NCBI GenBank assembly: GCA_028293025.1
Contig: JAQGLF010000042.1
Location: forward strand, 1-32,832
From: Alphaproteobacteria bacterium
GTDB taxonomy: Bacteria; Pseudomonadota; Alphaproteobacteria; Sphingomonadales; Sphingomonadaceae
Direction: 5' to 3'
DNA length: 32,832 nucleotides
Shown: positions 8,771 through 26,568 of the stretch, in pieces
Layout of the letters: the number at the start of each line of letters is the position of its first letter
Numbering within the stretch: the stretch's first letter is position 1
The notes under the pieces: generated by a model
The model's input: the letters and a program-made list of their open reading frames with translations, nothing else
What the model was told of the DNA's origin: nothing
Database searches by the model: none
Translations under genes and position numbers: made by a program

Positions 8771-9598
8771 TCAGGAAGCGGGCTTGCGCGCCGCCTCGGC
8801 CATTTCGATCCCGCGGCGGCGGGAGGCATCGAGGGTGCGCAGCAGCAGCGGGCGCAGGCCCTCCTCGGCATCGAGCATCTTCAGCCCCGCCTCGGTGGTG
8901 CCGCCGGGGCTGGCGACGCGGCGGGCGAGCTCGGCCGGCGGCTCGGGAGAGGCGGCGGCGAGCGCGGCGGCGCCCTCTGCCATGAATACGGCCAGACGGC
9001 GCGCCTGGTCCTCCGGCAGGCCGAGGGCGGCGGCGGCCTCGGTGAGCGCATCGAGGAAGCGGTAGAGGAAGGCGGGGGCGGCGGCGGTGAGGTGGCCGGC
9101 GAGGGCGAACAGGGCCTCGTCGTCGATCCATTCGACATGGCCGAGCGCCGCCATCAGCCGCTCGATCGTGGCGCGGGCGGCGGGCTCGGCGTCCCGGGAA
9201 TGGAGGCCGACGACGCCTTTGCGCAAAGCGACGGGCGTGTTGGGCATGGCGCGGACGATGGCTCGCGGCACGGGGAAACGCTGCCGCAACGCCTCGACCT
9301 CGACGCCGGCGAGGATCGAGACGAGGATCGTTTCCGGCGCGAGCACGGGAGCAAGGGCCGGGGCGACCTCGTCCAGCTTCTGCGGCTTGACGCCGAGCAG
9401 GACGAGCGCCGGCACCTCGTCCTCCGGCAGCATCGTGAGGACCCGAACCCCCCGCCCCACCGGTCGCCCGCTCGGCCGCACAACCGTGATCTCGCCCGGA
9501 TGGGCGCCGGCATCGAGCCAGCCGGTCAGCATCGCCCCCGCCATATTGCCGCAGCCGATCAGGAAGAGGGGTCCGGGAAGAAGGGGGGAGTCGGTCAT
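8771..9598 (-). CDS. proC: Pyrroline-5-carboxylate reductase
   Basis: FLIGCGNMAGAMLTGWLDAG, RAMPNTPVALRKGVVGLHS, RVASPGGTTEAGLKML signatures. Confidence 0.94.
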   Translation of the reverse strand: MTDSPLLPGPLFLIGCGNMAGAMLTGWLDAGAHPGEITVVRPSGRPVGRGVRVLTMLPEDEVPALVLLGVKPQKLDEVAPALAPVLAPETILVSILAGVEVEALRQRFPVPRAIVRAMPNTPVALRKGVVGLHSRDAEPAARATIERLMAALGHVEWIDDEALFALAGHLTAAAPAFLYRFLDALTEAAAALGLPEDQARRLAVFMAEGAAALAAASPEPPAELARRVASPGGTTEAGLKMLDAEEGLRPLLLRTLDASRRRGIEMAEAARKPAS

Positions 9599-9623
9599 GT
9601 GCTTCTCGTCGCCCGGCTATGCT

Positions 9624-9738
9624 CGTCGCCCCAGCGAAGGCTGGGGCCCCAGTGAGAGCCAGCACTTACAGGGTTGCCGGGCGAGGCTCCAGCACCGTGC
9701 GTGCTCTCGCTGGGGCCCCAGCCTCCGCTCGGGCGATG
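9624..9738. repeat. REPIN-like double hairpin (family GTCATCCCAGCG), copy 1
   Basis: Left arm cgtcgccccagcgaaggctggggccccagtgagagc, right arm gctctcgctggggccccagcctccgctcgggcgatg (near reverse complement); the left arm folds gccccagc-gaag-gctggggc. Confidence 0.88.
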
Positions 9739-9790
9739 TCTCTTTACGAAGGCGTTGCGAATCTACGCATGGACGGGCAGCGTCGACGCC

Positions 9791-10090
9791 ATGCGGGGCG
9801 GTTGGGTCTACATCCTGTGCAACAAGCCGCACGGGGTGCTCTATGTCGGCGTGACCGCGGACCTCGTCCGGCGCATCGCGCAGCATCGCGCCGGGGAAGG
9901 CGCCGTGTTTGCGCGGCGGCATCACTGCACCCGCCTGGTTTATGCGGAGCCGCACGAGAGGATCGAGGAGGCGATCCGCCGGGAGAAGGCGATCAAGGCC
10001 TGGCTGCGGCTGTGGAAGCTGCAGCTCATCCAGGAGCATAATCCCGAATGGGAGGATCTGTTCGAACGCATCCAGGCGGTGGAGGGGTAA
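9791..10090 (+). CDS. GIY-YIG nuclease domain protein
   Basis: MRGGWVYILCNKPHGVLYVGVTADLVRRIAQHRAGEG...AIRREKAIKAWLRLWKLQLIQEHNPEWEDLFERI; standalone GIY-YIG (UPF0213/YhbQ-like) domain; start codon uncertain. Confidence 0.93.
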   Translation: MRGGWVYILCNKPHGVLYVGVTADLVRRIAQHRAGEGAVFARRHHCTRLVYAEPHERIEEAIRREKAIKAWLRLWKLQLIQEHNPEWEDLFERIQAVEG

Positions 10091-10100
10091 GGCTCGTCGG

Positions 10101-10215
10101 CGTCATCCCAGCGAGGCTGGGATCCCAGTGAAAGAAGGCGCGAGCTATGGTGAGGGGCGCGGCTCAAACGTCCGTGCATGTCCTCGCTGGGGTCCCAGCC
10201 TTCGCTGGGACGACG
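10101..10215. repeat. REPIN-like double hairpin (family GTCATCCCAGCG), copy 2
   Basis: Left arm cgtcatcccagcgaggctgggatcccagtg, right arm tcctcgctggggtcccagccttcgctgggacgacg; each arm folds (atcccagc-gag-gctgggat; gtcccagc-cttc-gctgggac). Confidence 0.88.
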
Positions 10216-10222
10216 TGCGAGG

Positions 10223-10732
10223 TCAGGCCTCGCCCTGGGTTTCGATCAAAGCCGCGGCGATCGCTTCCTGGGGGGTCTTGCCGGCCCAGAGGACGAACTG
10301 GAAGACCGGGTAGAAGCGCTCGCATTCCTCGATCGCCGTCTCGACCAAAGTCTCGGCCTGCTGGAGCGAGAGGAGGCCGCTTTCGTCGCCTTCCAGAAGG
10401 ACGGCGTGGCGGAAGAGGACGAGGCCGCTATTGCTCCACAATTCGAAATGGCCGAGCCAGAGCTGCTCGTTAACGAGGCCGATCGTCTCGTAAACCGCGG
10501 CACGCTTGTCGGCGGCGACGCGGATGTCGGGGAGCGCCAGGAACTGGAGGACATGGTCCTCGTCCCGCCATACCGCGCGAAGCTCGTATTGCGCCCAGCT
10601 GCCCTGGAAGTTGGCGACGATCTCTTCGTCCCCGCCCCGTTCATAGGACCAGTTATGAGCGCTGAAATAATGTTCGAGCATGTCGATGGGAGCACTCGTC
10701 TCCCGCTCCAGCTCGTACTCGTCGACGTTCAT
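10223..10732 (-). CDS. YbjN domain-containing protein
   Basis: 169 aa, ...PIDMLEHYFSAHNWSYERGGDEEIVANFQGSWAQYELRAVWRDEDHVLQFLALPDIRV...; YbjN-like. Confidence 0.85.
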   Translation of the reverse strand: MNVDEYELERETSAPIDMLEHYFSAHNWSYERGGDEEIVANFQGSWAQYELRAVWRDEDHVLQFLALPDIRVAADKRAAVYETIGLVNEQLWLGHFELWSNSGLVLFRHAVLLEGDESGLLSLQQAETLVETAIEECERFYPVFQFVLWAGKTPQEAIAAALIETQGEA

Positions 10733-10830: not shown

Positions 10831-11130
10831 TTACACGCCCGGCGGCGACGAAGTTGTGGATTTCTTCGGCTTTCCGGCGCCGCCGGCCGCCGCAGCCGCC
10901 TCGAGCGCGTCGAGCCGGACCTTCAGCGCATGATTCTCCTCGCGGGCGGCGACGGCGATCGCCTTCACCGCCTCGAACTCGTCGCGGCTGATCATGTCGA
11001 GGCCGCCGATCCATTCGCGCATCCGCTCGCGAAAGGCGCCTTCGGCCTCGCGGGTCATGCCGGCGAGCGTGCCGGTAGCGCCGTTCATCACCTTGACGAA
11101 ATCGTCGAACAGGCGGTTTTCGGACTGCAT
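10831..11130 (-). CDS. ubiK: Accessory factor UbiK family protein (BMFP/YqiC)
   Basis: 99 aa; MQSENRLFDDFVKVMNGATGTLAGMTREAE...ISRDEFEAVKAIAVAAREENHALKVRLDALE. Confidence 0.82.
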   Translation of the reverse strand: MQSENRLFDDFVKVMNGATGTLAGMTREAEGAFRERMREWIGGLDMISRDEFEAVKAIAVAAREENHALKVRLDALEAAAAAGGAGKPKKSTTSSPPGV

Positions 11131-24402: not shown

Positions 24403-26568
24403 GTGTTCCGCTTTTCCGGGGTTGCCGTGCAATTCGTCAAATCCGCGCTCCTGATCGGCGCCCTTGCGGCAACCGCGTCGGCCCATGCGACCCCGCCGCG
24501 CGATGCCGACGACGATGATGAGCGGGCGAAGCCCGAGACCGAGATAACGATCACCGCCCGCCGCCTCGACGTCGCCCGCGAACGGGTCGAGCCGAGCCTC
24601 GGCGCCTCGACCTATACTTTGACCAACGATGCGGTCGAGAACCGTCCCGGCGGAGAGACGACGAACCTCGGCCGCGTGCTGCTGCAGGTGCCGGGCGTGG
24701 CCCAGGACGGCTCCGGACGGCTGCTGGTGCGCGGCCGGAGCGGGCTTCAATACCGGATCAACAACGTCGTCATTCCGGAAGGCGCCGCCGATCTTGGCGA
24801 GCGGCTGAGCACGCGCCTCGCCGACAAGGTGCAGCTCATCACCGGCGCGCTTCCCGCCCAATACGGCCTCGCCTCGGGCGGCGTCGTCGCCATCACCACC
24901 AAGAGCGGCGCCCTGCAGGACGGCGGCCAGGCGGAGCTTTACGGCGGCAGCCGTCATGAGATCGAGCCAGCCTTCGAGCTGGCGGGATCGTCCGGCCCGA
25001 CCAGCCTGTTCGCCTCCGGAAGCTATTCAAGCAGCCGCCTGGGGCTGAGCTCCCCCGACGGCAGCGCCGATCCGCTCCATGATCGCACGCACCAGATCGA
25101 GGGCTTCGCCTTCGCCGATCACATCATCGACGATGCCTCCCGAGTCTCCCTCATCCTCGGCACGACCAACGAATGGTTCCAGGTTCCGAACCTGCGCGGC
25201 CTCGACGCGGCGACCTATGACGCACCCGCTCCTTTCCGGCGGCCGCTGGCGGTCCGCGGGACAAGCCGCTTCCCCAGCGAAAATCTGGACGCGCGGCAAC
25301 GGGAGAATAGCGATTATGCCATCGCCAGCTATTTGAGGTCGGATGGACCGGCCACCCTCCAGGCGTCCGTGTTCGGCCTGGTCTCGAGCGTGGCCTACCG
25401 TCCGGACGGGACCGGCGATCTTCTCTTTTCCGGGCTCAGCCAAAGCGTCGAGCGGCGGGAATCCGCGGCAGGTCTCCAGGTGGAGGGCGCCTGGCAGGCA
25501 GGCCCCCGCCACACGATCCGCGGCGGTGCGATCGCCGATTTCGCAAGCGAGCGCGAAACGCGCGACTCGATGGCCCTGCCGATCGACGCCACCGGCCGCC
25601 AGACGTCCGACCAACCGATGCTCTTTCGCGAACTCGCGCACCGGACGCGCGGGCGGTTCAGTACCTTCCTGCAGGACGAATGGAAGCCGCTGGCGCCGCT
25701 GACCGTCAATGCCGGCCTCCGCTTCGACCGCGTCGGCGGCGAAGGCGGCGGAACCGCCCTCAGCCCACGTCTCAACCTCGTCTGGAGCATGAAGAAGGGC
25801 GCGGCTTTCCACGCCGGCTATGCCCGCTATTTCGTGCCGGCGCGGCAGGAGGGGGACGTGCCCGACCTCGTGGGGACGACGGGGGCGCTTCCCGGCGTCT
25901 CGAGCGCGCCGCTGCGGGCCCAGACCGACGATTATCTCGACGCCGGCGTCCAGGTTGCGAAGGGCGGCCTCAGCCTCGGCCTCGACGCTTATTGGCGGCG
26001 CTCGAAGAATTTCCTCGACGAGCGCCGCGCCGGCCCACCCCTCGCGTCGCGCAGCTTCAACTATGCGCTGGCGCGCTCGCGCGGCGTCGAGCTGAGCCTG
26101 ACCTATGTCGGCGGCCCCTTCTCGGCCTGGTCCTCGCTCGCCGTCGCGGCGACGAGAGCGAAGGGGATCGTCTCGCATCAAGCCTATTTCACCGATGCGG
26201 AGCGCGCGTTCGCCGCCGGCCACTGGATCCGGCCGGAAGGCGACCAGAGGATCACCGCCTCGGGCGGAGCATCATGGCGGATCGAAAGGCTGCGCCTGTC
26301 CGCCAGCGCGCTCTATGGCAGCGGGTTTCCGCAAAGCGCGCCTCTGTTCGGACCGGGGGCAGGTCGCCTCCCCGCTTATGTCCAGGTCGATCTCGCAGCC
26401 GTCTATCGGATCGAAGGTCTGCGCGACCGGCCGCTGGATATCAGGTTCGACGTGATCAACGCCTTCGACCGTCGTTACCAGCTGCGCGACGGCACCGGCA
26501 TCGGCGGGCATCTTCCCGAATGGGGGCCGCCAAGGGGTTTTTTCTTGGGCGTCGAACAGACGTTCTGA
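24403..26568 (+). CDS. TonB-dependent receptor
   Basis: Signal sequence; plug domain LGRVLLQVPGVAQDGSGRLLVRGRSGLQYRINNVVIP...YGLASGGVVAITTKSG; C-terminal ...FFLGVEQTF; start (GTG) uncertain. Confidence 0.9.
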   Translation: MFRFSGVAVQFVKSALLIGALAATASAHATPPRDADDDDERAKPETEITITARRLDVARERVEPSLGASTYTLTNDAVENRPGGETTNLGRVLLQVPGVAQDGSGRLLVRGRSGLQYRINNVVIPEGAADLGERLSTRLADKVQLITGALPAQYGLASGGVVAITTKSGALQDGGQAELYGGSRHEIEPAFELAGSSGPTSLFASGSYSSSRLGLSSPDGSADPLHDRTHQIEGFAFADHIIDDASRVSLILGTTNEWFQVPNLRGLDAATYDAPAPFRRPLAVRGTSRFPSENLDARQRENSDYAIASYLRSDGPATLQASVFGLVSSVAYRPDGTGDLLFSGLSQSVERRESAAGLQVEGAWQAGPRHTIRGGAIADFASERETRDSMALPIDATGRQTSDQPMLFRELAHRTRGRFSTFLQDEWKPLAPLTVNAGLRFDRVGGEGGGTALSPRLNLVWSMKKGAAFHAGYARYFVPARQEGDVPDLVGTTGALPGVSSAPLRAQTDDYLDAGVQVAKGGLSLGLDAYWRRSKNFLDERRAGPPLASRSFNYALARSRGVELSLTYVGGPFSAWSSLAVAATRAKGIVSHQAYFTDAERAFAAGHWIRPEGDQRITASGGASWRIERLRLSASALYGSGFPQSAPLFGPGAGRLPAYVQVDLAAVYRIEGLRDRPLDIRFDVINAFDRRYQLRDGTGIGGHLPEWGPPRGFFLGVEQTF

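Follow-up and report, generated by a model that had tools for sequence, protein, structure and literature searches.

The stretch of DNA analyzed here (the window; 32,832 nucleotides) carries, between the host genes proC and ybjN, a small stand-alone GIY-YIG nuclease gene enclosed by two REPIN-like elements (Table 1). The product of this gene scores 56.5 bits with the Pfam GIY-YIG model (PF01541; cut-off, 22.6), and its catalytic residues (Y7, Y18, G20, R28, H32, and E65) are intact as well as invariant among the relatives compared. The arms of the left element (9626-9665 and 9697-9736) are 88% complementary over 40 nt, and those of the right element lie at 10101-10131 and 10184-10215. A comparison over 45 nt gave 82% likeness between the elements, and both fold considerably better than shuffled sequences (z of -8.8 and -6.3 for the left and right element, respectively, with 0 of 200 shuffles as good). 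A preliminary description of this DNA had claimed a GIY-YIG ORF between two REPIN-like double hairpins, which the coordinates, the Pfam domain, and the folds confirm; arm complementarity and fold z-scores also agree with the two inverted hairpin arms that it assigned to each element, exactly ten bases were counted where it gave approximately 10 bp between the stop codon and the right element, and Pfam matches bear out all three minus-strand neighbors (proC, ybjN-like, and ubiK). The window gene has one complete REPIN on each side; most relatives have a single arm per side, so that the nuclease gene lies between both arms of what amounts to one enlarged REPIN.

Table 1. Features of the nuclease locus and its surroundings (positions refer to the window)
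Feature	Position	Strand	Basis
proC, pyrroline-5-carboxylate reductase, flanking host gene	8771..9598	-	PF14748
Intergenic insert separating proC from ybjN	9599..10222		Comparison with same-genus relatives
Left REPIN-like element, inverted pair of hairpin-forming arms, outer ends CGTCG...	9624..9738		Fold, arm comparison
Stand-alone GIY-YIG nuclease ORF, 99 aa, clade A	9791..10090	+	ATG 9791, TAA 10088-10090
Right REPIN-like element, two inverted arms, ends CGTCATCCC...GGGACGACG	10101..10215		Fold, arm comparison
ybjN-like flanking host gene	10223..10732	-	PF10722
BMFP/ubiK gene, neighbor	10831..11130	-	PF04380

In the window's own genome (G000, a draft of 389 contigs that is 88% complete), the repeat family of the window occurs at approximately nine further places (16 BLAST matches, both arms included), and several of these copies are REPINs of 70-115 bp. 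This genome encodes four GIY-YIG proteins, UvrC and three stand-alone nucleases; inverted flanking repeats were found at all three stand-alone genes, while uvrC was without them. The repeats differ among the three genes, with CGTCGCCCCAGCGAAGGCTGGGG at the window gene, CCGTTCGGGCTGAGCTTGTCGAAGCCC at a second locus (L001), and CTCATCCTGAGTAG...CGTATCGAAGGACC at a third (L002).

Relatives of the nuclease, called at E <= 1e-5, are present in 70 of the 101 genomes that made up our order-level sample, often in two to seven copies, some of them broken, and 31 of the 32 order-level loci inspected reached the threshold of our flank test (i.e., an inverted-repeat score of >=30 when the upstream flank is compared with the downstream one). 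Flank scores were bimodal in an independent phylum-wide sample of GIY-YIG loci drawn with the Pfam model, and on the tree flanking repeats occurred only in two subclades (38 of 40 loci; 33 of 34 in clade A, which includes the window gene, and 5 of 6 in clade B), as compared to 0 of 20 other GIY-YIG loci, a count that covers 17 UPF0213/YhbQ-type and three other loci and leaves out E. coli YhbQ, which served as a landmark in the tree only. The flank trait requires 4 changes on this tree; shuffled labels required 18.8, and none of 500 shuffles reached so low a number. Clade A (support 97/93) and UPF0213/YhbQ form separate supported clades. A further scan, of named genomes and plasmid records, used a hand-made clade A consensus that was picked independently of flanks and yielded 88 testable loci; by the same score threshold of >=30, inverted repeats were present on both sides of 84 of these relatives, as compared to 21 of 1064 control segments of equal size taken from the same loci (Fisher p ~1e-101). 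The preliminary description had stated that its proposal would fail if most homologs of the subfamily were without repeats or if the repeats flanked random genes equally often; the 84 flanked relatives run counter to the former, and the 2% of flanked control segments, together with the single such pair on the chromosome described below, run counter to the latter. Repeat type is also predicted by nuclease subclade, as CTGAGCNTGTCGAAG-type repeats were found at 7 of 7 evaluable clade B loci, and a single gene out of 80 in clade A had the CTGAGCNTGTCGAAG word nearby. With a median dN/dS of 0.10 (92 pairs), the nuclease is under strong purifying selection across species.

The repeat population was characterized in a relative (G007) with a nearly complete chromosome (2.40 of 2.42 Mb scanned) and a single clade A gene. 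The repeat of this gene has 120 copies with up to five mismatches, as compared to none for the reversed motif. These copies form 36 converging pairs, 35 of which are REPINs spaced 39-67 bp; the GIY-YIG gene is located within the remaining pair, the sole longer one (351 bp). Within 700 bp, only five diverging pairs and one same-orientation pair were found. Most sites are either a REPIN or a lone arm, and symmetric solo palindromes number just two. Conservation starts exactly at the outer CGTC...GACG, with no conserved bases outside, and none of the 36 pairs showed a target-site duplication of 3 or more bases. The repeats show the hallmarks of REPINs, namely inverted hairpin arms with short spacing, many intergenic copies, exact ends, and no duplication of the target; the intergenic position of the copies was judged by neighboring genes only. 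Across the 101 genomes, repeat number is associated with gene number (rho of 0.48 for clade A and type A repeats and of 0.60 for clade B and type B repeats, without phylogenetic correction and with gene counts transcribed by hand from tables); cross-type correlations are likewise positive, so type specificity is weak, and three repeat-rich genomes had no detected nuclease gene. The independence of repeat number from the gene, which the preliminary description had also named as an outcome that would speak against it, was hence not observed, with the reservation that the association is weakly type-specific and not corrected for phylogeny.

With regard to mobility, ybjN and proC directly adjoin in several same-genus relatives (including G007, G019, and G020), other same-genus relatives carry different REPINs at this junction, and the nuclease unit was present there only in the window's genome among the relatives compared; the empty junctions support the earlier claim of an insertion between proC and ybjN. 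Erythrobacter sanguineus has at least seven near-identical nuclease units at unrelated sites, which share a common block of 412-474 bp followed by wholly unrelated flanks, and recent within-genome copy pairs were found in three further genomes. As the E. sanguineus block extends beyond the hairpins by approximately 40 bp on the left and 20-60 bp on the right, the unit that moved does not run exactly from repeat to repeat, and its movement could have resulted from ordinary recombination between other repeats in intergenic DNA. In Sphingobium plasmids, a unit of approximately 350 bp is found at a site that holds one solo palindrome in two related plasmids and neither unit nor solo in others; a unit in Sinorhizobium likewise occupies the position of a solo palindrome in relatives. 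In both genera, the solo combines the outer hairpin halves of a unit (the left hairpin contributes its left half and the right hairpin its right half), and these occupied and solo sites are equally compatible with insertion into a palindrome and with deletion from a unit. A 50-kb syntenic Sphingobium comparison found that 3 of 3 palindrome-bearing indel sites were REPINs or the nuclease unit; no clean empty-site REPIN junction was found in these 50-kb stretches, where the junctions are too diverged to reveal the chemistry of insertion.

We thus consider it probable that the nuclease gene and its hairpin ends represent a compact selfish mobile unit, with REPINs as its gene-less derivatives, and that the nuclease drives the spread of both. 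The small GIY-YIG nuclease would recognize its own palindromic repeat family (an outer CGTCA/CGTCG motif followed by a hairpin) and would nick the repeat, probably when it is single-stranded in replication or DNA uptake; repair would then copy the complete unit, or the arm pair alone (i.e., a REPIN), to new intergenic sites. The relation of REPINs to the nuclease unit would thereby be that of MITEs to their insertion sequence, with the nuclease in the role that RAYT, a Y1 transposase, has for classical REPs. To the observed architecture, confinement to two subclades, match between subclade and repeat, exact-ended REPINs, recent copies, empty sites, and purifying selection, this reading adds repeat cleavage, a cut site, a preference for single strands, and repair-driven copying, all of which we infer. 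GIY-YIG enzymes hydrolyze DNA and are not known to rejoin strands; copying would therefore presumably depend on host repair. This point and the negative search for a target-site duplication in G007 speak against the proposed insertion step.

The analogy with RAYT that the preliminary description had drawn holds for the architecture. As in REP/REPIN-RAYT systems, inverted hairpin pairs occur in intergenic positions in tens to hundreds of copies, without an observed target-site duplication, and one gene is bracketed by inverted copies of the repeat. However, the flanked enzyme is a GIY-YIG rather than a Y1/HUH protein, which places these loci outside the REP/RAYT systems, and the outer motif is CGTCA/CGTCG, while classical REPs carry a GTAG-type motif. 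A gene within terminal inverted repeats, accompanied by many short gene-less copies with the same ends, is also the arrangement of insertion sequences and MITEs, although there is no known transposase here and no target-site duplication. The closest solved relatives by sequence, UPF0213/YhbQ proteins (1zg2 and 1ywl), share domain and size with the window nuclease, yet they belong to a different clade, whose tested members have no flanking repeats.

An alternative that we regard as unlikely, while giving it some weight, is domestication of the nuclease as a site-specific, Ssn-like enzyme that acts on single strands, for which the repeats are cutting sites that regulate DNA uptake or genome maintenance and the flanks are autoregulatory or selected, without any transposition. 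Ssn, a GIY-YIG nuclease of Neisseria, reportedly is specific for a single-stranded repeat (NTS), affects natural transformation, and is said to have many homologs with matched sequences; a link between a GIY-YIG nuclease and a repeat has reportedly already been published for Neisseria. Ssn, like the nuclease described here, is reported to be a stand-alone GIY-YIG protein paired with a many-copy genomic repeat. The strong purifying selection across species, the location of a clade A homolog within a gonococcal repeat array, and the reported cutting by Neisseria Ssn of a repeated sequence, with its modulation of natural transformation, all favor this alternative; by contrast, multiple and broken copies, recent copies at unrelated sites, and empty sites look mobile. 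What apparently sets our loci apart from Ssn is a compact arrangement with inverted repeats on both sides of the gene, together with the evidence on dispersal. An Ssn-like role and a mobile unit can, moreover, both be true.

Homing provides another route, in which a solo palindrome is cut and the unit is copied in by break repair with the hairpin halves as homology. The Sphingobium and Sinorhizobium units, located exactly at solo-palindrome positions of relatives, are what such a process would leave, but deletion between short direct repeats inside both hairpins yields the same junctions, and the G007 chromosome contains mostly REPINs or single arms and just two symmetric solos; we find this explanation quite improbable. 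The unit is also set apart from intron and intein homing endonucleases by its intergenic location between proC and ybjN. It is highly improbable that a RAYT (Y1/HUH) elsewhere in the genome spreads the repeats, with the GIY-YIG gene as a passenger: while a Y1 transposase domain was matched in 31 of the 101 related genomes, this domain (PF01797) was found neither in the 88% complete draft G000 nor in 70 of the 101 genomes, and repeat number hardly tracks Y1 count (rho of 0.17-0.24 across the 101 genomes, as compared to the values for GIY-YIG count given above). Equally remote is the notion that the hairpins, which are intergenic and have strong stems, are bidirectional terminators or ordinary repeats in a repeat-rich place where the gene landed by chance, given the rarity of such flanks in control segments, the G007 repeat pair that encloses the nuclease gene only, and the tested UPF0213/YhbQ-type loci, none of which is flanked. 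On the basis of the control segments and the contrast between clades, we reject both the terminator and the passenger reading. A mobile unit driven by its own nuclease hence is our preferred reading, and the GIY-YIG nuclease likely represents a second, non-RAYT engine that disperses bacterial hairpin repeats.

Outside the Alphaproteobacteria, clade A relatives with nearby repeats were found in Neisseria gonorrhoeae, Aeromonas caviae, Spirosoma (Bacteroidota), and Planktothrix (Cyanobacteriota), in a non-systematic sample of few loci judged by eye and flank score. The N. gonorrhoeae homolog (51% identity to the window protein) is embedded in a dense array of CGTCATTCCCGCGCAGGCGGGAATC, a dRS3-like repeat, and the same record contains a second non-UvrC GIY-YIG gene. 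The dRS3/NIME repeats of Neisseria have the core ATTCCCN8GGGAAT, which equals a repeat type observed at these nucleases; other nucleases are accompanied by other repeat types. The literature searched, which did not include the Ssn report, yielded neither an enzyme for dRS3 spread nor work that links GIY-YIG to REP, REPIN, RAYT, MITE, or dRS3. A plausible although tentative extension is that GIY-YIG nucleases of the two subclades are the engines of widespread autonomous hairpin-ended mobile elements in several phyla, with common GTCATTCCCGCG...- and GTCATTCTGAG...-type repeats, including neisserial dRS3, as their gene-less derivatives.

Short hairpin repeats with no known means of spread number from dozens to hundreds in many bacterial genomes, and dispersal by a 100-aa nuclease would account for repeat families beyond the reach of RAYT. 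If the proposed role is correct, RAYT/REPIN would have a second, enzymatically unrelated counterpart, REPIN-like populations would have arisen with two unrelated enzymes, a large natural set of nuclease-target pairs could be read off gene flanks, and the origin of the neisserial dRS3/NIME arrays would become directly testable.

A number of individual loci showed additional features. In Sinorhizobium meliloti (CP090106.1; L109, 2168-2330), an internally deleted unit, which consists of a repeat, the last part of the gene, and a repeat, lies approximately 300 bp upstream of an intact unit and resembles a MITE-like derivative. At L370 (Sphingobium TomTYG73, near 24900), a frameshift interrupts the nuclease gene in one plasmid out of several close relatives, which shows decay in place. 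On a Planktothrix agardhii plasmid (L113, 2200-3040), a clade A nuclease is located between an MmeI-type restriction gene and DISARM drmA, amid GTCATTCTGAG...-type hairpin repeats. With regard to plasmid records, PLSDB entries NZ_CP119140.1, NZ_CP119142.1, and NZ_AP026896.1 (2.2-4.9 Mb) apparently are misfiled chromosomes. At three loci (L069, L070, and L100), the right repeat is translated in frame as the C-terminus of the nuclease (...GFPLSRE, ...HPGESRDPRTRDW). Finally, the clade B GIY-YIG frame at L002 of the window's genome (G000:C283, 781-1857) is open across the right repeat and extends into a SpoU/TrmJ-like methylase (PF01541 and PF00588), and clade B matches in many relatives have similarly long open frames (368-462 aa), which suggests a conserved read-through or fusion of the clade B GIY-YIG gene upstream of trmJ.
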